Assembly (NCBI RefSeq): GCF_011059105.1
Contig: NZ_JAALLS010000003.1
Coordinates: 62,001 to 126,000, forward strand
Length of the DNA: 64,000 nucleotides
Reading direction: 5' to 3'
DNA from: Fodinibius halophilus
GTDB lineage: Bacteria > Bacteroidota > Rhodothermia > Balneolales > Balneolaceae
The notes beneath the pieces are model-generated. The model did no database searches. It was not told the DNA's origin and worked only from the letters and a program-made list of their open reading frames with translations. A program made the position numbers and the translations under genes. Of the stretch, positions 47,155 through 57,704 are shown piece after piece; position 1 is the stretch's first letter, and every line of letters begins with the position of its first letter.

Positions 47155-48081
47155 ATGTCTCACCAAGGCATCCATCACATTACTGCCGTGGCCGGCGATC
47201 CCAAAGAAAATCACAAATTTTATACACAGGTGCTGGGCTTGCGAATGGTTAAAAAAACGGTCAATTTTGACGATCCTTCGGTTTACCACCTTTACTATGG
47301 CAACGAAACGGGCGAACCGGGTACCATCCTAACATTCTTTCCCTGGGAACACTTGAAAGACGGAGAACCGGATGCAGGACAGGTGGTGGCTGTATCGTTT
47401 TCTATTCCAACAACTTCAAAATCATTTTGGCTGCACCATCTCGAAGAACAGAAAATCGACTTTGAAGATCCTTTTGAACGATTTGGCAAAGAAGTAATTG
47501 GACTGCAAGATCCACACGGTTTACACTTGGAACTGGTATTGGATCCCGTGGCAGATAAGGCAGAGGGCTGGGAAGATGGACCCATTCCGGCTCGACACAC
47601 CATTCGTGGCATCCACGGCGCTACCCTGGCCGAAGATAATTATGCAGGAACAGGTCGATTGCTTGAAGAGGATCTGGGTTTTGAACTCACCAATCAGTTT
47701 GAAAACCGGTACCTATATGAATCAAAAGCTGAATTTGGATCAACGATAGAGATTATTGATCAGTTTCCCCTCAATGGCAAACCGGGCAAAGGCACCGTAC
47801 ACCATATTGCCTTTCGCGCCGAAGATGAAGAAGAACAGGAACGGTACCGGAAAAAGTTATTGAACAAAGGATATTACCTCACGGAAGTGAAAGATCGAGA
47901 TTACTTTAAATCGGTCTATTTCCACGAACCGGGCGGCATTCTTTTTGAAATTGCAACGGATCCACCCGGTTTTACCTGCGATGAAGATGTTGCTAAGCTG
48001 GGACAATCACTTCAATTACCCGATTGGCTGGAACATGAACGAACTGATATTGAGCAAGATCTACCCTCTTTAACTGCTTAA
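47155..48081 (+). CDS. MhqO-like ring-cleaving dioxygenase (VOC family)
   Basis: 308 residues with two vicinal-oxygen-chelate modules. The first starts GIHHITAVAGDPKENHKFYT and contains GLRMVKKTVNFDDP; the second starts TIRGIHGATLAEDNYAGTGR, with the metal-binding Glu region GGILFEIATDPPGF. Bacillus MhqO/MhqA/MhqE proteins of this type are induced by hydroquinones and open quinol rings. It is 12 bases before a paralogue with which it shares about half of its residues, and forms an operon with the hydrolase at 49033. The exact substrate is inferred from family and context. Confidence 0.88.
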   Translation: MSHQGIHHITAVAGDPKENHKFYTQVLGLRMVKKTVNFDDPSVYHLYYGNETGEPGTILTFFPWEHLKDGEPDAGQVVAVSFSIPTTSKSFWLHHLEEQKIDFEDPFERFGKEVIGLQDPHGLHLELVLDPVADKAEGWEDGPIPARHTIRGIHGATLAEDNYAGTGRLLEEDLGFELTNQFENRYLYESKAEFGSTIEIIDQFPLNGKPGKGTVHHIAFRAEDEEEQERYRKKLLNKGYYLTEVKDRDYFKSVYFHEPGGILFEIATDPPGFTCDEDVAKLGQSLQLPDWLEHERTDIEQDLPSLTA

Positions 48082-48093
48082 CTTATTGCTACC

Positions 48094-49026
48094 ATGTCTG
48101 AACACCGCGGAATTCATCACATTTCTGTCACTGCCAGCGATCCCCAAGCCAATTATGATTTTTATGTAAAAAAGCTGGGGATGCGAATGGTTAAGAAAAC
48201 GGTAAACCAAGATGACCCCACGAAATATCACCTTTTCTATGCCAATGCCGAGGGGAGCCCGGGCTCTAGCCTGACCTTCTTTCCATGGCCCAATGCCCGG
48301 GAAGGGATCAACGGAACCGGGGAAGCTACTGCTATATCGCTGGCAGTGCCAAAAGATTCTTTATCCTATTGGCAAGAACATCTTAAAGAACAGAAGATTC
48401 CTTTCAGCGGTCCTATTAGCCGCTATAATAAACAGCACCTCTCTTTTAAAGATCCGGATGGCCTACAGCTTCACCTGGTTTTTGATGACCTTCTCTCAGA
48501 TCCCAAAGGCTGGGAGAAATCACCGGTCCCTACCGAACATCAGATACAAGGATTCTGGAGCACTACCTTGGAGGTAGCTAACACTGAGCATACAGAAAAC
48601 GTATTGACCTCCATTTTGGGATTTGAAAAAGATAGCTCTGAAAAGAACGCAACGCTCTATAAAAGCAAGAGCACACTCGGAAAAACCATCATTCTCAAAC
48701 AAACCCCGGCAAGGCAAGGACAAAATGGGGCGGGCATTGTCCACCACCTGGCCTTCCAAACTGAGGATAAAGAAGATCTGAAAAAGCTGCGTCACGAGGT
48801 ACTGCGATATGGCCTTCAACCGACAGAAATTACTGATCGCCATTTCTTTAAGTCTGTTTACTTTCGACTGCCAAACGGACTGCTTTTTGAAATGGCTACT
48901 AGCGGACCGGGCTATTTTGTGAATTCTGATTTTGATGCCGACCAAGCCGAAAAACTAGAACTGCCCCCGTGGTATCGCTCGCAACGAGACGAGATAGAAG
49001 CGGCCCTGCCAACTCTTAAAACCTAG
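48094..49026 (+). CDS. MhqO-like ring-cleaving dioxygenase, paralogue
   Basis: 310 residues. Same two-module plan: GIHHISVTASDPQANYDFYV, GMRMVKKTVNQDDP, and at the end GLLFEMATSGPGYFVNS. It arose by tandem duplication with the 47155 gene but has diverged strongly in the second module, so the two may take different quinols. The hydrolase gene starts seven bases after its stop. Confidence 0.88.
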   Translation: MSEHRGIHHISVTASDPQANYDFYVKKLGMRMVKKTVNQDDPTKYHLFYANAEGSPGSSLTFFPWPNAREGINGTGEATAISLAVPKDSLSYWQEHLKEQKIPFSGPISRYNKQHLSFKDPDGLQLHLVFDDLLSDPKGWEKSPVPTEHQIQGFWSTTLEVANTEHTENVLTSILGFEKDSSEKNATLYKSKSTLGKTIILKQTPARQGQNGAGIVHHLAFQTEDKEDLKKLRHEVLRYGLQPTEITDRHFFKSVYFRLPNGLLFEMATSGPGYFVNSDFDADQAEKLELPPWYRSQRDEIEAALPTLKT

Positions 49027-49032
49027 CATCCT

Positions 49033-49701
49033 ATGTCCCTTTTTCGCGTAGATCCCGACAACCCATTCAACGGGCCTCACCAACAAAATATGCAGGTAGT
49101 TACGGGCGGCCTATCTCCTAACGATGCCTCCATGGCAATGATTTTGACCCATGGACGGGGAGCATCGGCACAAAGTATGATGCTCTTTGCTGATGAATTT
49201 GAACGAGATGATATCCACTACCGGGCCATACAAGCAAGGCGTCACACTTGGTATCCCCGATCTTTTCTGGCACCCCGGGAGAACAATCAGCCCGGAATCT
49301 CCAGCGGACTGCAAGCTATTTATAATCAAATTAGCGAACTCAATAAAGCTGGAATTAATACTGACCATATCGCCCTGCTGGGATTCTCACAAGGTGCTTG
49401 CCTTACCACCGAATTTGCGGCCCGTCACCCACAACGTTTTGGGGCAATCATTGGATTTAGCGGTGGATTAATTGGCGACATGATTGACGAGGCCGCTTAT
49501 GAAGGAGACTTAAAAGAAACACCGGTTTTCCTGGGATGCAGCAACGTTGACCCCCATATCCCCCAAAAAAGAGTGGAAGATACCGCCCGCATCTTACAGC
49601 AGTTGAATGCAGATGTAACAAAGAAAATCTACAAGGGAATGGGCCATACGGTCAATGAGGATGAGATCAAAGAAGTAAACAAAATATTAGAAAGCATATA
49701 G
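49033..49701 (+). CDS. MhqD-like alpha/beta hydrolase
   Basis: 222 residues. Nucleophile elbow GFSQGACLTTEFAARHP (Ser), preceded by ILTHGRGASAQSMMLFA, with the catalytic Asp region VFLGCSNVDPHIP and His in YKGMGHTVNEDEI. It belongs to the carboxylesterase/phospholipase group that includes MhqD, encoded with MhqO in Firmicutes. Probably hydrolyses a ring-opening product or glutathione/bacillithiol-type conjugate; the latter is a guess. Last gene of the detoxification operon, 30 bases from the end of the converging OLD-family gene. Confidence 0.88.
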   Translation: MSLFRVDPDNPFNGPHQQNMQVVTGGLSPNDASMAMILTHGRGASAQSMMLFADEFERDDIHYRAIQARRHTWYPRSFLAPRENNQPGISSGLQAIYNQISELNKAGINTDHIALLGFSQGACLTTEFAARHPQRFGAIIGFSGGLIGDMIDEAAYEGDLKETPVFLGCSNVDPHIPQKRVEDTARILQQLNADVTKKIYKGMGHTVNEDEIKEVNKILESI

Positions 49702-49731
49702 TTTACATACTGTATAATTACTCATTTTATC

Positions 49732-51540
49732 TTAGAACTTCTTTCTAAGTATATCTATCAATTTTTTAATATTTTCTTTGGACTCATCATCTATATCAAT
49801 TCCACCATTTAGTACTTTCTCATAGAATAACTTTGCGTTAAGTACCTTATCCGTTTTTTTTGCTATCGTTGAATTCTTTTTTCTTTTATCATATTTGCCT
49901 GTCTCTAATATTGCCGAATGATATAGATCTTTACTTAAAACATCTTCAATTGCTGCATTTGCCAATGGTATTTTACCTATCATATCTTTAGTTGTGCACT
50001 CCCAATCCTTATCTAACTTCTTTTTTGCTTCTTTATATCCATTATCATTATCGAACAGATAATATATATCACAACCCCAGCCTTGGAGAATAGTTCCAAC
50101 ATGTGGCATATTAGTAGCCCCACCCCCATGAATTATATTGACTGAATTCTCATTCATAATTTTCATAAAAGCATTTAAATAATAGTAGTCAGAAGGACCT
50201 TCAACAATTATATTATTAATCTTATCAACATTACTTATTCCATCATTTATACCTAACCCTATTGTTGTTAAAACTGGCGTTAATGTTTCTTTATCCGAAA
50301 CCTTATGTAATTTATTAGATATTGTAGTATTATTATTTTCTTTCAAAACAGCTCTAACTCTATGCAACCTATCATTACTAATCAAATAAGGGGAATGTGT
50401 TGAAAAAAGAATTTGTGAAGGCAAATCATTCAATCTCTTGATGATATCTTTCTGTGCTTTAGCATGTAAATAAAGACCAGGTTCATCTATCAAAATTATA
50501 TTATCGTACTCTTCTTTTGTCTTCGCAGATACCAAAATATAAAAAGATAAATACCACTGTTTTCCCTTACTCCTCATGCTGGGCTTAAAATGCTCATTTT
50601 CTTCAGAAATAAAGAACAAGACTGTATCACTATCCCATTCTATTAAAACCTCTGACTGATCTTGTTTCCAATATTTTTGAAGCTCTTCATTGAATTCTAT
50701 ATTTAATCTTTTTTTATGATTAACCTTCTGTAGGTTCCCTCCTGACTTTATTAAACTTGTATCAATATCAGAAATTTTCTCAAATGCTTTAATCCATTTA
50801 CTATTTGATAAATTATCGATTTCAATCTCATTAGGTAAGATATCATCAAAAGATTTAAATAAAACGAAATATGGCACATAGTGCGCAAGCTCAGTCGCAT
50901 ATCTTAAATCATCGTTATCATTTTTATTAATCTTGAGTAAGCTAATCAACTCATTAACTTCTTGGGTTAAAGTATTTACATTGCTAACATGACTATTGTT
51001 ATTTAATTGATTAGTATATTGCTTGAATCTCTTTATTGAATCTTCAAGATTGTTATAAATGACCTCAGGAAGTTTAACTTCAGCCTGTCTTGACACATTT
51101 TCATCATGCAATATGTTAATCTCACTAGTTTTCTTTTCTATATCTTCCCTAACTTTATATCGTGCCTTTTTAATTTCTAATAATCCTATTTGGCGCAAGA
51201 ATTCTTCATCCAAAAAATAATTTGATGAAAAATCTTTTGTCAAAGTCAGCTCCAATTCATTTTTGGACAACTCTTTAATCTCTTCTGTTACTTTAAAGGT
51301 AGGAAGCTCTTCATGACCAATTCTTAGGGTAAGCTCAATTCTCGGTTCTCCATCTTTATGTACCGGTATATGATCTTCAGAGAATTCTTTATCTACGTTA
51401 AAGCACTCCAATGCTTCAAGAACATTAGACTTTCCTGACTCATTTTTTCCTGCTAAAATCGTTAAATCCCTTGACAAATAGCATTCCCCTGAATCAATAA
51501 TTGATTTAAAATTAAAGATTCTAAAACTAATTAACTCCAT
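49732..51540 (-). CDS. OLD-family ATPase with TOPRIM nuclease domain
   Basis: 602 residues. The N-terminal ABC/SMC-like ATPase half has Walker A at 31-39 (GKNESGKSN), a coiled-coil insertion (about 125-200), and Walker B IILIDEPGLYLHAKAQ followed by LFSTHSPYLIS. The C-terminal TOPRIM domain begins NIIVEGPSDYYYLNAFMKI and has the DxD pair in IYYLFDNDNGYKEAK. This is the class 1 OLD (overcoming lysogenization defect) plan; no UvrD-like helicase sits beside it, so it is not a Gabija pair. Such nucleases often serve in phage defence. It is markedly more AT-rich than neighbours and splits the quinone operon from its likely MarR regulator, a sign of acquisition. Function as defence is inference. 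Confidence 0.88.
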   Translation of the reverse strand: MELISFRIFNFKSIIDSGECYLSRDLTILAGKNESGKSNVLEALECFNVDKEFSEDHIPVHKDGEPRIELTLRIGHEELPTFKVTEEIKELSKNELELTLTKDFSSNYFLDEEFLRQIGLLEIKKARYKVREDIEKKTSEINILHDENVSRQAEVKLPEVIYNNLEDSIKRFKQYTNQLNNNSHVSNVNTLTQEVNELISLLKINKNDNDDLRYATELAHYVPYFVLFKSFDDILPNEIEIDNLSNSKWIKAFEKISDIDTSLIKSGGNLQKVNHKKRLNIEFNEELQKYWKQDQSEVLIEWDSDTVLFFISEENEHFKPSMRSKGKQWYLSFYILVSAKTKEEYDNIILIDEPGLYLHAKAQKDIIKRLNDLPSQILFSTHSPYLISNDRLHRVRAVLKENNNTTISNKLHKVSDKETLTPVLTTIGLGINDGISNVDKINNIIVEGPSDYYYLNAFMKIMNENSVNIIHGGGATNMPHVGTILQGWGCDIYYLFDNDNGYKEAKKKLDKDWECTTKDMIGKIPLANAAIEDVLSKDLYHSAILETGKYDKRKKNSTIAKKTDKVLNAKLFYEKVLNGGIDIDDESKENIKKLIDILRKKF

Positions 51541-51640
51541 GACAAATAACTTTGATTACAAATTAAAAATACACTCTTAATAAAGAGTATGTATAAAAAA
51601 CATTTTGATAATGTCTCCCTAATAAAAATTCTGATCAAAC

Positions 51641-52069
51641 CTACTCCATGGCTTCCAGGGCTTTGTCGATCATCTCTGATAGTACTTTTACGTAACGGTC
51701 TCCCAACTGCTCGCTCTGCAGACTATTAAGGCTTCTCCATTTATCCTTAACTTCCTGGGCAACGCGTCCCCCCTTTGCTGTTGAAACAACGGATGTAGCA
51801 CGTCCTTTCGATTCCCGCTCAACCAGTTCGCGCCGCTCCAGCTTTTGCACCAGTCGTGTTATGGTAGAAGGCTTAAGGTGCAGGCGCTCTGCCAATTTGC
51901 TCGGCTGTATCCCCGGATCATTTTGAACCAATAGTAATAATAGCGCATGCGACGATGATAACCCTACCGAAGCAAAGACCTCATCGGCTTGTCGCGTAAG
52001 CTTTCGGGAAAAAGCTGCTGCTAAGAAAAAGAGATTCCCTTCAAGAATGTCATCGTTGTTTTCTGCCAT
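51641..52069 (-). CDS. MarR-family transcription regulator
   Basis: 142 residues. Winged helix: LLLLVQNDPGIQPSKLAERL, HLKPSTITRLVQKLERRELV and ERESKGRATSVV, flanked by the dimerisation helices. MarR proteins repress detoxification genes and release DNA on binding or oxidation by quinones and other ligands; MhqR is the known example for mhqO/mhqD. A Cys redox switch is not obvious: no cysteine is seen in the sequence. Separated from the mhqO-like operon only by the OLD gene. Confidence 0.88.
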   Translation of the reverse strand: MAENNDDILEGNLFFLAAAFSRKLTRQADEVFASVGLSSSHALLLLLVQNDPGIQPSKLAERLHLKPSTITRLVQKLERRELVERESKGRATSVVSTAKGGRVAQEVKDKWRSLNSLQSEQLGDRYVKVLSEMIDKALEAME

Positions 52070-52194
52070 AACAATTATTTTGGCTGTGCATGCAAATCAA
52101 TATAGTGATCCATGAGAATTTTAAAAACAAATCCCACTACAAACCGATTCCTTTGTACAAAAAAACGGATCAACCGTTCTATCCCGGGCACCTA

Positions 52195-54657
52195 TTACTC
52201 TATATCGATATCCCAGATCCGCTCACAATAATCACGAATGGAACGATCAGAAGAAAAGTGTCCCATCTTCGCAACATTTAAAATTGCCTTTTTATTCCAG
52301 TCGAAACTATTTCGGTAATTCTCTTCTACCTCCTTCTGCTTGTCGATATATTGTCGGAAGTCTGCCAGTACCATAAAATAGTCGCCCTGGCTAAGTAAAG
52401 CATTGGTGATAGGGTGAAAAAGGTCCGGAGTTTCGGGGGTGAAATATCCCTCATGTATCTGGTCTACCACCTTCTTTAGCTCTTCATCCTCCTCGTATAT
52501 CTCCTGTGGATGATAACCACTGTTGCGCACCTCTTTAATTTCATCCACGGTGTGCCCGAAAATAAAAATATTTTCATTCCCCACCTGTTCACGGATTTCA
52601 ATATTTGCCCCATCCAGTGTACCAATCGTTAGCGCGCCGTTGAGGGCAAACTTCATATTCCCCGTGCCCGAAGCTTCCATTCCTGCTGTAGAGATCTGTT
52701 CAGAAAGATTGGCGGCAGGAATCATCTTTTCGGCCAGCGACACACTATAATCCGGTAGAAAAAGCACCTTTAGCTTAGGTGCCACATCCGGATCATTATT
52801 AATAACCTCGGCTACACTGTTAATCAATTTGATATGCAGCTTGGCCATCGTATAGCCCGGAGCCGCTTTACCAGCAAAAAGCAGTGTTCGTGGCGCAACA
52901 TCTGCATTGGGATTTTTCTTCAGCCTGTTATATAGCGCGATGGCATGCATAATAGCCATTAACTGACGCTTATACTCATGGATCCTTTTGATCTGGATGT
53001 CAAAAATAGAGTGGGGATCTACCTGCACGCCCATCGTCTTTTTAATATAGCCGGCCAGCTGTTGCTTATTACGAAGTTTGATCTCTTTAAACTGCTCCTG
53101 AAATTCTTCATCGCCGGCAAACTTCTCCAGCTGCTGCAGCTGTTCTAAATTTGTAACCCAATCACTGCCAATATTATCAGAAATAAGTTCCGATAATTCT
53201 CTGTTACACTGCCGCAGCCATCGGCGGGGGGTAATGCCGTTTGTTACGTTGGTAAACTTTTGGGGAAAGTGGTCGCTAAAATCACTGAAAATAGTTTTCT
53301 TCATCAGCGAGCTGTGCAACTTCGAGACCCCGTTTACTTTTTTCGCCCCCACAATTCCAAGGTGGCCCATCCGTACGCGCGACTCCATCTCATTACTAAT
53401 AATCCGCATATCGTTCTTCTTGCTGTTCGCGCTACGATCACCGCTTACCTCAATAGTATTCAAAAAACGACGATCAATCTCGCGAATAATCTGTGTATGT
53501 CGAGGAAGCAAATTTGACATCAACGACAGTGGCCACTTCTCCAGTGCCTCCGGCATTAACGTATGATTGGTATAGTTGATCGTCTTTGTCGTAATCTCCC
53601 AGGCCGGTATCCATTCCAAACCCTCTTCGTCCATCAGCACACGCATCAACTCCGGAATCGCCAGGTTCGGATGCGTGTCGTTACATTGAATCGCCATCTG
53701 TTCGGGAATCTTAGACAGGTCTGAAAACTGCTTTTTAAAGCGCACCATGGCATCCTGCAGCGAAGCCGAGACTAAAAAATACTCCTGTTTCAGCCGCAGC
53801 TCCTGTCCCTTGAATACCTTGTCATTGGGATACAACACGCGCGAGATATTCTCTTCCAGCAGATTGTTGCGTACTGCATCAATATAATCTCCCTGGTTAA
53901 AGCTTTTAAGATCAAAGCCTTCATCAGACGTTGCCTTCCACAGACGCAAGTGGTTAACCACATCATTTTGATAACCGGGAATAGGGGTATCATAGGCCAG
54001 TGCTGTCACGTTATGGGTATTCACCCAGTCAAAATGGAGGCGCCCGTTGCTATCCTCATGGGCCGTAGCCTCTCCATAAAAACGAACCCGGTATTTCTTC
54101 TTGGGACGCACTACGCTCCACGGGTATCCATACTGCAACCACATGTCGGGCTTCTCTACCTGCCAACCGTTTTCAATATCCTGATCAAAAATACCGTAGT
54201 CGTATCGAATGCCATAGCCCAGCGCCGGTACGCCCAGGGTAGCCATCGAATCCAGGAAACATGCGGCCAGCCGCCCCAGCCCCCCGTTACCGAGCCCGGC
54301 ATCAGCTTCGGCTTCGCGCACCTTATCATAATCAAGCCCCAAATCTTCAATCGCCTCGGCCACCACATCCTGCACTCCCAGATTAATGAGCATATTATCC
54401 ATCAGCCGCCCAATAAGATACTCCATCGACAGGTAGTACACCCGCTTCGACTTTTGGGCATAATAGCTTTGCTGGGTGTTAATCCACCGATCATGCAGGC
54501 GATCCATAACAGCCATTACCACACTTCTATAATGGTCCCACTCTGTGGATGAAAACTTATCTTTAGCCAATGTATAATGAAGATGCTGATGGATATCTTC
54601 GCGAAAGGCATCCACATCCATTCCCGTACGGGGGTTGTGCGAGGTGTCTGAAGGCAT
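52195..54657 (-). CDS. glgP: Glycogen/starch phosphorylase
   Basis: 820 residues from the ATG at 54655-54657; a TTG 15 bases upstream is less likely. Features are VYYLSMEYLIGRLMDNMLIN, GLGNGGLGRLAACFLDSMAT, YGIFDQDIENGWQVE and the PLP-binding lysine (about 669) in EASGTGNMKFALNGALTIGT. It releases glucose-1-phosphate from glycogen. The full length suggests an active GT35 enzyme. Monocistronic; no other glycogen gene is in the window. Confidence 0.97.
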   Translation of the reverse strand: MPSDTSHNPRTGMDVDAFREDIHQHLHYTLAKDKFSSTEWDHYRSVVMAVMDRLHDRWINTQQSYYAQKSKRVYYLSMEYLIGRLMDNMLINLGVQDVVAEAIEDLGLDYDKVREAEADAGLGNGGLGRLAACFLDSMATLGVPALGYGIRYDYGIFDQDIENGWQVEKPDMWLQYGYPWSVVRPKKKYRVRFYGEATAHEDSNGRLHFDWVNTHNVTALAYDTPIPGYQNDVVNHLRLWKATSDEGFDLKSFNQGDYIDAVRNNLLEENISRVLYPNDKVFKGQELRLKQEYFLVSASLQDAMVRFKKQFSDLSKIPEQMAIQCNDTHPNLAIPELMRVLMDEEGLEWIPAWEITTKTINYTNHTLMPEALEKWPLSLMSNLLPRHTQIIREIDRRFLNTIEVSGDRSANSKKNDMRIISNEMESRVRMGHLGIVGAKKVNGVSKLHSSLMKKTIFSDFSDHFPQKFTNVTNGITPRRWLRQCNRELSELISDNIGSDWVTNLEQLQQLEKFAGDEEFQEQFKEIKLRNKQQLAGYIKKTMGVQVDPHSIFDIQIKRIHEYKRQLMAIMHAIALYNRLKKNPNADVAPRTLLFAGKAAPGYTMAKLHIKLINSVAEVINNDPDVAPKLKVLFLPDYSVSLAEKMIPAANLSEQISTAGMEASGTGNMKFALNGALTIGTLDGANIEIREQVGNENIFIFGHTVDEIKEVRNSGYHPQEIYEEDEELKKVVDQIHEGYFTPETPDLFHPITNALLSQGDYFMVLADFRQYIDKQKEVEENYRNSFDWNKKAILNVAKMGHFSSDRSIRDYCERIWDIDIE

Positions 54658-54833: not shown

Positions 54834-56363
54834 CTACGAGCCCGGGCAGGTACCCCATTCAGGTTTATTACTCTCTGTAAGTGGACTTCCTGCGGAGAAG
54901 TTAGAAGGTTCTGAAGAAATATTAGATACACACCAGCTGCTAATATCCTGATTAAAAGATGCTGCATCTTCGAACATTGAAGTCATGCTCGTTACATTGC
55001 TCACGTCCCAGTTGGCAATATTTCTATTAAAGGAATCTGCATGCTCAAACATACTGCTCATAAATTCAACACTGCTTACATTCCAACTACTGATATTTCC
55101 ATTGAAGGTATCAGCCCCAGCAAACATTGACCGCATATCTGTAACACTGCTAACATTCCAATTGCTGAGATCTCTATTAAATGAATTTGCCCCATAAAAC
55201 ATATCCTGCATATCCGTTACTTTGCTCACATCCCAGCCACTGATGTCTGAGTTAAAGGAAGACGTTTCACTAAACATATTCTCCATATTCGTTACATTGC
55301 TTACATTCCAACCACTAATATCTCCATTAAAGGCTGAAGCCTGATTAAACATGTTATCCATGTCTGTAACAGACGAGACATTCCAGCTACTAATATCTCC
55401 ATTGAAAGTACTATTTCGCTCAAACATTCTACTCATTTTCGTTACACTGCTGACATCCCAACTGGTGAGATCTCTATTAAAAGCTGTGGCTTCATAAAAC
55501 ATCTCACTCATATCTACTACATTACTCACACCCCAGTTGCTGAGATCTCTGTCAAAGGAAGTTGCACGGAAAAACATAGCACTCATATCGGTTACACTGC
55601 TCACATCCCAATGACTAATATCACCATTGAAAGTATCCTCACTACCAAACATACCACTCATGTCCGTTACTCCACTCGTACAGGTTGTTTCGGCATTGGA
55701 AGTAGTAATCTGGGATTTGCTGCGTTTGGTATAAGTAACGCCATCCACTTCTCCGGTGTCACCCACACTGGCATCCTCACACTTTACTGTCACTCCGTTT
55801 TCAGCCAAATAAAATGGAGATTGCTCTTTAAACACAGCCATTACTTCTTTGGCCCCATCCATCGTAATTTGCTGGGGATTTTCACTGCCGGTTAGATCTT
55901 TGGTCCACTCTACAAACTCCCAGCCGGTAGCAGGATTGGCCGTCAATTTCACAACAGTACCGTGCTCGTAATCTGTGGATTTTTGTTGAACGATTTCCTC
56001 ATTTACTGATCCATCACCATCTGTGGTAACGGCAAGCTCATAGCTTTTTACTTTAAAGTTGGCTGTAATAGAATAATCTTGATCTACTGTCAATGACAAC
56101 GGATTGTCAGAACTCTCTACATCGCCGGTCCAGCTGGTAAACATATATTCTTCGTTGGCATTGGCATCAATCTCAATTTCTTCCCCTTCATCATAGGTGT
56201 TTGAACCTGAGGGAGAGATCGATCCCCCTTCGGTAGAAGACAGATCAACCGTGTAGGTGGTTGTTTCGCCTTCATCTCCCGGACCGGTCCCCGAATCGCC
56301 GCACGCGGCCAACATGAATCCTGTAAATAAAAGTGTGATAAGTAGTTTGGTTAGTCGTCTCAT
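54834..56363 (-). CDS. BspA-like surface lipoprotein, DUF285 repeats
   Basis: 509 residues. Lipoprotein signal peptide with the lipobox LAAC (Cys21), then GDSGTGPGDEGE linker. Two InlB-type B-repeats follow (about 38-180: [40 protein letters not shown]). A Cys-containing joint (VTVKCEDASVGDTGEVDGVT, then TTCTSGVTDMSGMF) leads to ten copies of a 25-residue repeat with the core FNxDISxWDVSSVTDM (DUF285/PARCEL). The end is WCVSNISSEPSNF and WGTCPGS, with two Cys that may close a disulfide. Anchored in the outer membrane or periplasm, probably for adhesion or binding. Last of three paralogues. Confidence 0.9.
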   Translation of the reverse strand: MRRLTKLLITLLFTGFMLAACGDSGTGPGDEGETTTYTVDLSSTEGGSISPSGSNTYDEGEEIEIDANANEEYMFTSWTGDVESSDNPLSLTVDQDYSITANFKVKSYELAVTTDGDGSVNEEIVQQKSTDYEHGTVVKLTANPATGWEFVEWTKDLTGSENPQQITMDGAKEVMAVFKEQSPFYLAENGVTVKCEDASVGDTGEVDGVTYTKRSKSQITTSNAETTCTSGVTDMSGMFGSEDTFNGDISHWDVSSVTDMSAMFFRATSFDRDLSNWGVSNVVDMSEMFYEATAFNRDLTSWDVSSVTKMSRMFERNSTFNGDISSWNVSSVTDMDNMFNQASAFNGDISGWNVSNVTNMENMFSETSSFNSDISGWDVSKVTDMQDMFYGANSFNRDLSNWNVSSVTDMRSMFAGADTFNGNISSWNVSSVEFMSSMFEHADSFNRNIANWDVSNVTSMTSMFEDAASFNQDISSWCVSNISSEPSNFSAGSPLTESNKPEWGTCPGS

Positions 56364-56435: not shown

Positions 56436-57704
56436 CTATGTACCGGGACAAGTTCCCCACTCCGGTTCATTACTATCTTCAAGCGCACTGAATGATGAAA
56501 AACCACCGGGCTCTGATGTGAAATTTGATACACACCAGCCGCTGAGATCTTGGTTAAAAGATGTAGCATTATAAAACATCGTCTCCATATCTGTAACTCC
56601 CGAGACATCCCAATCGCCTATATCTCTATTGAAGCCCTCAGCATCGGCAAACATAGTGTTCATATCGGTTACATTAGACACATCCCAGTTACTGATCTCC
56701 CCGTTAAAGTTGATAGCATCATGAAACATATCACTCATATCTTCCACACCGGATACATCCCAACTGTTGAGATCCTGATTAAACGCCTCGGCACCTTGAA
56801 ACATGCGCTTCATACTTTCTACACTACTTACATCATCTCCCCAGCTGTCGATATCCTGATTGAAAGAAGTAGCATTCCAAAACATCGCACTCATATCCGT
56901 CACGCTGCTGACATCCCAGTTGCTCAAGTCACCATTAAAGGCAGTAGCATCCATAAACATAGATCCCATATACAAAACACCAGAGACATCCCAACTGCTG
57001 ATATCCCCACTAAAGGCCTCGGCACCTTGAAACATTTTAAGCATATTCGTAGCACTAGACACATCCCAGTGGCTGATATCCTGGTTAAAAGACTTAGCAT
57101 CATGAAATATAGCAGTCATAGTTGTAACACTGCTGACATCCCAACTGCTAATATCTTCGTTGAAATCCACAGAGTCCCGAAAAACATAACTCAAATCCGT
57201 AATATCACTTGTGCAAGTGGTAGAGGCATTATCTGTGGTAATCTGATCGGCAATGCGCTTAGTGTAAGTGACATCATCTACCGTACCGGTATCGCCAACG
57301 CCGGCGTCTTCACACTTGATAGTCACACCGTTTTCGGCCATATAAAATTTTGCTTGTTCCTCTTCGAAGACGGCCGTTACCTCTTTAGACTCGTCAATGG
57401 TAATCTGTTGGGGATTCTCTGTTCCTGTCATATCTCCTTGCCACTCCACAAAGATCCAGCCGCTGGCGGCCTCGGCGGTTAGTTCTACAGTTTCTCCTTC
57501 ATCATAGGGGCCATCGGCTGACCGAGAAACAGCCCCCCCTTCTGATGGCGTTACGGTGATATCCATGCTGTAGGTGGTTGTTTCACCTCCATCGTTGTCT
57601 CCATTACCGTCATTGCCGGGACCGGTGCCGGAATCGCCGCACGCAGCCAACATGAATCCTGTGAATACAAGTGTAGTAAGTAGTGTGGTTAGTCGTCTCA
57701 TCAT
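56436..57704 (-). CDS. BspA-like surface lipoprotein, DUF285 repeats (second copy)
   Basis: 422 residues. LAAC lipobox at Cys22, then one InlB-type B-repeat (about 45-115: ITVTPSEGGAVSRSADGPYD, then WIFVEWQGDMTGTENPQQIT). The Cys joint VTIKCEDAGVGDTGTVDDVT follows, with nine repeats (FNQDISHWDVSSATNM-type) and a C-terminus WCVSNFTSEPGGFSSF, WGTCPGT. One repeat has an insert (SFNQDIDSWGDDVSS). It is the shortest of the three. Signal-peptide DNA is nearly identical to that of its neighbours, which points to recent duplication of the module. Confidence 0.9.
   Translation of the reverse strand: MMRRLTTLLTTLVFTGFMLAACGDSGTGPGNDGNGDNDGGETTTYSMDITVTPSEGGAVSRSADGPYDEGETVELTAEAASGWIFVEWQGDMTGTENPQQITIDESKEVTAVFEEEQAKFYMAENGVTIKCEDAGVGDTGTVDDVTYTKRIADQITTDNASTTCTSDITDLSYVFRDSVDFNEDISSWDVSSVTTMTAIFHDAKSFNQDISHWDVSSATNMLKMFQGAEAFSGDISSWDVSGVLYMGSMFMDATAFNGDLSNWDVSSVTDMSAMFWNATSFNQDIDSWGDDVSSVESMKRMFQGAEAFNQDLNSWDVSGVEDMSDMFHDAINFNGEISNWDVSNVTDMNTMFADAEGFNRDIGDWDVSGVTDMETMFYNATSFNQDLSGWCVSNFTSEPGGFSSFSALEDSNEPEWGTCPGT

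Follow-up and report, generated by a model that had tools for sequence, protein, structure and literature searches.

A lone OLD-family gene between convergent transcription units of Fodinibius halophilus, probably acquired horizontally and a candidate for single-gene antiphage defence

In Fodinibius halophilus, a bacterium of the Balneolaceae, a gene of the OLD family stands between dioxygenase and hydrolase genes on one side and a marR-type regulator gene on the other. Such a position raises the question of where the gene came from and what it does there. The gene occupies positions 49732..51540 of the minus strand of the window, which is the whole stretch of 64,000 nucleotides analysed here (NCBI RefSeq assembly GCF_011059105.1, contig NZ_JAALLS010000003.1, positions 62,001 to 126,000 of the forward strand). 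A preliminary description of this DNA gave the same coordinates and neighbours and regarded the gene as acquired, inserted into a quinone-stress locus and possibly a single-gene defence. The kind of gene is already known: the OLD family unites an ABC ATPase with a TOPRIM domain, and its enzymes cut DNA or RNA and guard bacteria against viruses. Comparisons of sequences suggest that the window gene is a horizontally acquired single-gene OLD-family nuclease, which most likely serves in antiphage defence.

The gene encodes a protein of 602 amino acids in a full-length frame, whose start aligns with the starts of its relatives. At its N-terminus the protein has an ABC/AAA ATPase, into which a helical segment is inserted, and at its C-terminus a TOPRIM region with a helical part. 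Pfam finds AAA_15 (1.2e-18, residues 1-387), AAA_21 and OLD-like_TOPRIM (3.1e-7, residues 444-499; 31.3 bits against a cut-off of 23.2), and among the PADLOC models Old ranks first (4.1e-27, 93 bits), followed by GajA (72 bits) and AriA (71 bits). The structure of the whole chain was modelled with a predicted local distance difference test score (pLDDT) of 81. The Walker A motif GKNESGKS (residues 31-38) lies at 51427..51450 (-), and the TOPRIM region (residues 443-534, with E447, D451, D497, D499, E532 and D533), as delimited in a 34-row alignment, at 49939..50214 (-). The C-terminal helical part (residues 531-601, including K565), placed by the model and the alignment, lies at 49738..49950 (-).

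The preliminary description had noted the lack of a partner helicase, and this observation holds. The left junction, from the esterase stop to the OLD stop (49702..49731), measures 30 bp, and the right junction, from the OLD start to the marR stop (51541..51640), measures 100 bp, which leaves no room for a gene of a helicase or another partner. In the place where GajB would be expected, directly downstream of OLD, stands the convergent esterase gene. No reverse transcriptase gene adjoins OLD (the flanking products are Abhydrolase_2 and MarR proteins; a retron non-coding RNA was not searched for).

The first sign of foreign origin is the base composition. Among 47 mechanically called open reading frames (ORFs) of at least 150 amino acids in the window, OLD included, this gene has the lowest GC content (0.300) and the lowest GC content at third codon positions (GC3, 0.251), whereas the means are 0.431 (standard deviation 0.036) and 0.416 (0.054), respectively. 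OLD relatives in Lactococcus are equally AT-rich, with a GC content of 0.29. The scan of composition and codon usage proposed earlier bears out the first count only: the codon-likelihood score against the remainder of the window is unremarkable (-0.005; mean -0.007, standard deviation 0.029). Therefore, the foreign signal lies in AT-richness and not in different preferred codons, and an argument for foreignness from codon usage finds no support beyond it.

The second sign comes from the comparison of the insertion site among relatives. Out of 97 genomes searched, seven carry the esterase and marR genes within 10 kb of each other: the window's own genome (G000) and G002, G005, G009, G010, G013 and G021, with the esterase of G013 cut by a contig end. 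OLD is found at this site only in the window's genome, and the other six lack it, so that the gene is neither shared at the site by all relatives nor of normal composition. In G010, the closest relative compared, the flanking genes are 0.777-0.838 identical in DNA and the site is empty, with 60 bp separating the two stop codons; in G005 it is nearly empty (169 bp). No close full-length homologue of OLD occurs in the 96 other relatives, nine of which give a match at 1e-3. The best of these matches reach 29% identity (residues 285-569) and 38% (a span of 141 residues); in general, identity is 25-38% over parts of the protein, and values of 39-46% are confined to short spans of about 50-65 residues. 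In a draw from the phylum, in which at most three candidates were scored per genome, 12 of 393 other genomes match OLD at 1e-15 or better, with 26-36% identity over parts. Thus, the arrival of OLD by acquisition looks real, judged on these sequences. The simplest history would be a gap that, in the lineage of G000 and G010, lacked the antiporter gene found there in other genomes, followed by the gain of OLD; this is an argument of parsimony and not a dated event. We infer that OLD was gained once the lineages of G010 and of the window's genome had separated.

The claim that OLD is inserted into the locus stands in one part, as the insertion itself is borne out, but no operon is interrupted. 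OLD occupies the gap between two converging units, the VOC1-VOC2-esterase operon on the plus strand and marR on the minus strand, and it lies downstream of both. Within the right junction lies a hairpin (about 51569-51594), and folding of this junction is modest, with z -1.53 for the minus strand and -2.17 for the plus strand. The 9-mer AAAGAGTAT of this hairpin (51582-51590) is also present in the 60-bp empty gap of G010, and a match of nine is reached by 9 of 500 shuffles. Consequently, OLD may sit between the esterase stop and an old convergent hairpin. Terminator-like sites in 49600-52250 number three, with 1.1 expected, and none falls at either junction. A search for a target-site duplication or terminal repeats yielded a best flank-to-flank direct repeat of 7 nt, which 118 of 300 shuffles reach, and the candidate was rejected. 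Gaps of 30 and 100 bp are too short to hold an integrase gene or insertion sequence beside OLD (a scan for integrases did not extend to the whole window), and ARAGORN finds no tRNA genes in the window.

The contents of this gap in the other genomes allow another view of the site, compatible with an acquired defence gene, in which cargo such as OLD, a Kef-type antiporter and other genes has entered the gap repeatedly, making it a small chromosomal hotspot. Four gap contents are observed in the seven genomes: OLD; nothing (G010 and G005); the antiporter alone (G009 and G021); and the antiporter accompanied by other ORFs (G002 and G013). This antiporter (Na_H_Exchanger and TrkA_N), found at L053:5545-7116, L054:6579-8153, L055:4682-6253 and L056:658-2232, has no match at 1e-30 in G000, G010 and G001 among the eight genomes searched. 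However, it belongs to one family in all four genomes and fits an electrophile theme, so that it may be an ancestral gene that some genomes lost and not an insertion, and a defence-type gene fills the gap in only one genome. The odds lean against a hotspot.

OLD relatives ride on plasmids and phages, and several of them lie beside genes that match defence models. The nearest relatives, at 37% identity, are found in Lactococcus, and one of them is plasmid-borne. Scanning genomes with the proteins of the window and Lactococcus turned up three loci, namely Lactococcus fujiensis (37%) and two Dyadobacter loci (31-32%). Among 100 plasmid records, the best match is on Lactococcus pLLN8-2, whose AAA family ATPase (WP_017865312.1) is 37% identical over 99% of the length and resembles the window protein in its 602 amino acids and its GC content of 0.29; no partner gene is annotated, and a resolvase gene lies 80 bp upstream. 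Annotated phage records gave only two weak partial matches, and an earlier viral scan with a two-sequence alignment gave one weak relative (23%), while a wider viral scan found 55 loci. In the tree, the clade of the window and Lactococcus proteins is firm (100/99), and the phage-borne L099 stands next to it (85/81). The branch of P2 Old is too long for the tree to be rooted with it, and the window and Lactococcus clade is the only firm one.

Nine nearer relatives were considered together with their neighbourhoods (L075, L079, L080, L081, L099, L100, L101, L102 and L146), and PADLOC was applied to chosen neighbours rather than to whole loci, with those of the two Lactococcus genes left out. Five of the nine adjoin a gene that matches a defence model: DarG in L080 (1.1e-115), PDC-S32 in L081 (1.1e-106), RmrA in L100 (6.2e-51), PD-T7-4 in L102 (2.2e-75, with a tape-measure gene on the opposite side) and AriAB in L146 (1.7e-133). 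In L101, a lone OLD gene is flanked by portal (Phage_portal_2) and capsid (Phage_capsid_4) genes, and its GC content is 0.43 against 0.67 in the genes beside it. The single scanned neighbour in L099 gives no PADLOC match. On this evidence, the earlier suggestion of a single-gene defence is likely.

Further arrangements were observed around other members of the family. A small upstream gene is shared by relatives at L076:5508-8004, L077:5505-8004, L078:5480-7983, L103:3482-5998, L104:3520-6007 and L106:3520-6007 (L107 is cut), a set drawn from plasmids of Escherichia, Enterobacter and Vibrio and from three viral contigs. This conserved gene of 157-169 amino acids ends 7-11 nt before OLD in all six plasmid and viral loci with an intact upstream stretch. 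Its product has, by eye, a helix-turn-helix-like stretch, as well as a hydrophobic C-terminal segment, and it gives no Pfam family above the cut-off (four scanned) and no PADLOC match (two scanned). The pair may form an undescribed two-gene OLD system. Proteins of 188-191 amino acids with a hydrophobic stretch, again by eye, directly follow distant OLD relatives (L091:5809-6384 and L093:5487-6053) and are possibly membrane partners. Other distant OLD genes (L085:5798-9414, L089:6407-13073 and L092:6038-12647) lie within apparent type I restriction-modification operons with hsdM-like starts, as assigned by eye. G010 itself carries a distant OLD gene elsewhere (641 amino acids). It heads a series of AT-rich genes (L095:5282-11450, GC 0.31-0.34), which includes matches to PDC-M68A, PDC-S11 (a weak one) and IetA. 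In G002, of the same genus, an OLD gene is followed by a 374-amino-acid gene without a PADLOC match and by one that matches PDC-S20 (1.3e-80; the three genes span L096:2640-7462).

The catalytic residues were compared in an alignment (A3) of 33 loci, picked by hand from 58, and the window protein (34 rows); other long frames, duplicates and short frames were left out, and L101 and L112 were begun at the match instead of the first start codon. K37, E447, D497 and D533 are invariant in all 34 rows, E532 is present in 32, D451 in 28 and D499 in 20. At position 530, D occurs in 16 of 34 rows and A in five, the window protein having A530. The position of K565 holds K in 19 rows, H in 14 and R in one, and K in all seven close relatives. 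Walker A and B and the H loop are kept (K37, D352 and H382). In the D/S/T-x-E motif of the second metal, the window has A530-I-E532, in which E532 is kept and A530 replaces D/S/T. Based on the alignment, the ATPase motifs and most TOPRIM catalytic residues are retained.

The same pattern emerges from a comparison with P2 phage Old, the archetype of Class 1, which is likewise a single gene with the ATPase before the TOPRIM domain. According to PMC7049728, residues K37, D299, H306, H332, E398, E402, D453 and D455 are needed for P2 function. MAFFT aligns them with K37, D352, H359, H382, E447, D451, D497 and D499 of the window protein, respectively. The P2 Old D541-x-E543 motif is left unaligned by MAFFT (by motif, it corresponds to A530-I-E532), and P2 K550 falls on D564. 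P2 Old is very distant from the window protein, with an end branch over 4 in the tree.

The way in which the window protein might act can be outlined from better known OLD proteins. The ATPase domain, in a dimer or higher oligomer, would be a sensor or gate, restrained in healthy cells. An infection cue would free the TOPRIM site, for which P2 Old offers a precedent in RecBC inhibition and GajA in nucleotide depletion. The freed site, with two metals and K565, would cleave nucleic acid, and the infected cell would halt phage production. The substrate may be DNA, as for TsOLD and Bp OLD, which cut DNA in vitro (PMC10568477, which also gives GajA as inhibited by high nucleotide), or host tRNA, since P2 Old, which responds to RecBC inhibition, is reported to cleave it (as cited in PMC13261556). 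Both trigger and target we infer here by analogy. OLD would probably be expressed from its own promoter or by low read-through out of marR, its upstream neighbour in the same orientation.

Several points weigh against the window gene being an active antiphage nuclease. First, the metal-B position is occupied by A530, where TsOLD has S, Bp OLD has T and P2 Old has D; in the seven close relatives it is A or G in five and S or T in two. Second, D499 is kept in only three of these seven, and the Lactococcus relatives, that of pLLN8-2 included, differ from the window protein in carrying V at 532 and E at 451. Third, the phage phenotype of YbjD, an OLD protein of Class 1, is independent of its TOPRIM domain (PMC13261556), so the nuclease-dependence of the window protein cannot be assumed. 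In addition, an OLD protein of archaea is reported to have a role in the cell cycle (PMC12796447), the survey of defence neighbours covered selected relatives and had no background rate to set against it, and loss of OLD in G010 is made unlikely only by its absence from other relatives, with one strain compared.

It could also be that the inserted gene is decaying or inactive and has been retained by chance. A530 stands where the metal-B ligand is usually D, S or T, and promoter-like sites in 49600-52250 are not enriched over shuffled sequence (15 against an expected 12.7). Nevertheless, the full length of the 602-codon frame, the aligned start and the retention of Walker A and B, the H loop, E447, D497, D499, E532, D533 and K565 make decay unlikely. 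A host function in DNA repair or the cell cycle, in which case the gene would be AT-rich by chance and lost by relatives, is less probable still: a role in the progression of the cell cycle is reported for Cran1 of archaea (PMC12796447), but OLD is absent at the site in six linked genomes, has no close homologue in 96 relatives, and its relatives are found on plasmids and in viral contigs.

As set out in PMC10568477, Class 1 is defined by a single-gene context, Class 2 by a UvrD-like helicase and Class 3 by a retron, and the window gene is assigned to Class 1 by this rule because of its single-gene context. A search of the Protein Data Bank (PDB) with the family profile gives TsOLD from Thermus scotoductus (6p74, Class 1) as the best match (2.7e-27, 99 bits), followed by GajA (58 bits), and a single-sequence search also ranks TsOLD first (8.9e-5). 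The C-terminal model (pLDDT 86), on the other hand, is closest to the isolated Class 2 C-terminal regions of Bp and Xcc (Z 11.2-11.3, 151-152 residues aligned, root-mean-square deviation (rmsd) 3.2-3.4; for Bp OLD Z 11.3, 151 and 3.4). TsOLD fits worse (Z 8.7, 141 aligned, rmsd 4.0), tied with whole chains of GajA from B. cereus Gabija (Z 9.0), and retron Eco2 reaches Z 9.4. As Z may vary with the length of the target, only the comparisons with isolated domains stand out. K565, which opens the penultimate helix, resembles K562 of Bp OLD, located in alpha5 of the helical domain according to PMC6755086. Foldseek with the whole model ranks retron PtuA first, TsOLD third and GajA 28th; with the C-terminal model, it ranks TsOLD first at 4.1e-3 and gives no match at 1e-3. 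A whole-model structure comparison yields no OLD protein among the 50 matches listed, which are taken up by ATPase heads of SMC, Rad50 and PtuA type. The modelled C-terminus hints at the Class 2 type, and this is the sole unusual point of the protein. A tentative proposal, rather doubtful at present, is that the window protein, the Lactococcus pair and the phage-borne relatives form an undescribed stand-alone OLD lineage, with Class 1 genetics (no helicase) and a Class 2-type C-terminus, moved as a one-gene cassette across phyla by phages and plasmids and parked between convergent genes; the word undescribed refers here to part of the OLD literature, without a sequence-based literature search.

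The flanking genes comprise VOC1, an MhqO-like ring-cleaving dioxygenase gene (47155..48081, +), VOC2, a second VOC-family gene identified by Pfam (48094..49026, +), an Abhydrolase_2 carboxylesterase gene (49033..49701, +; PDB 4h0c, 6.5e-51) and the gene of a MarR-family regulator assigned by Pfam (51641..52069, -). The comparison with the quinone-stress set of Bacillus is upheld for VOC1 (3oaj, MhqO, 4.9e-81) and fails for the esterase, which scores 18.7 bits with the NCBI MhqD model NF047577 against a cut-off of 325. Among 19 solved-structure matches of the window MarR, there is no MhqR chain, and the best is OhrR (7.9e-7). The role of MarR as regulator of the operon, as assumed before, is unsupported by these sequences, with inconsistent linkage and no shared operator. 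In G003, G004, G006 and G008, which keep VOC1, VOC2 and the esterase, marR lies about 29-33 kb from the operon; it was not found in G011, which also keeps the three genes; and in G001 and G007 it is on another contig, with only a VOC2-like gene and an esterase gene found (51-58% identity). The upstream regions of marR and voc1 share no operator-like palindrome or convincing 9-mer, although a degenerate site could be missed. G000, G010 and G005 have no shared 9-mer, G002 has a single one, and G009 and G021 have two apiece that overlap; the candidate of a common operator was rejected. A TTGYATGYNCAA-like element occurs upstream of marR in several genomes, and the TTGYATGYNCAA pattern with one mismatch allowed is not above chance in the window (three found, 5.5 expected). 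The insertion of OLD touches neither promoter, and thus nothing here would stop MarR, if it acts on the operon.

It is highly improbable that OLD is itself part of an electrophile-stress locus, co-transcribed with marR and acting against quinone-caused DNA damage, for although only 100 bp separate it from marR, which precedes it in the same orientation, the sequence between the two genes can form a hairpin, OLD is here in no other genome compared, and the linkage of MarR to the operon is itself inconsistent. An Oxidored_FMN-family gene lies upstream of VOC1 in G005 (Pfam, L052), with look-alike starts, by eye, in other relatives; together with the Kef-type antiporter, it presumably fits electrophile detoxification. 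Elsewhere in the window, two neighbouring lipoprotein-like genes (54834-56363 and 56436-57704, -) have repeated 'SFN.DIS.WDVS.VT.M' units, which we take to be DUF285/BspA-like.

Isolated Class 1 OLD genes are described as rare, with 0.45% of bacterial genomes given as cited in PMC13261556, and few have been tested so far. The clean empty site, the compact form and the relatives on plasmids and phages make the window gene a fair choice for finding out whether an OLD gene by itself defends. It also suits the question of whether such a protein may do so without a helicase or retron, and of whether a Class 2-type C-terminus may work without GajB. The wider point is a modest one: a defence gene may be acquired singly, outside an island, in the gap between convergent genes.
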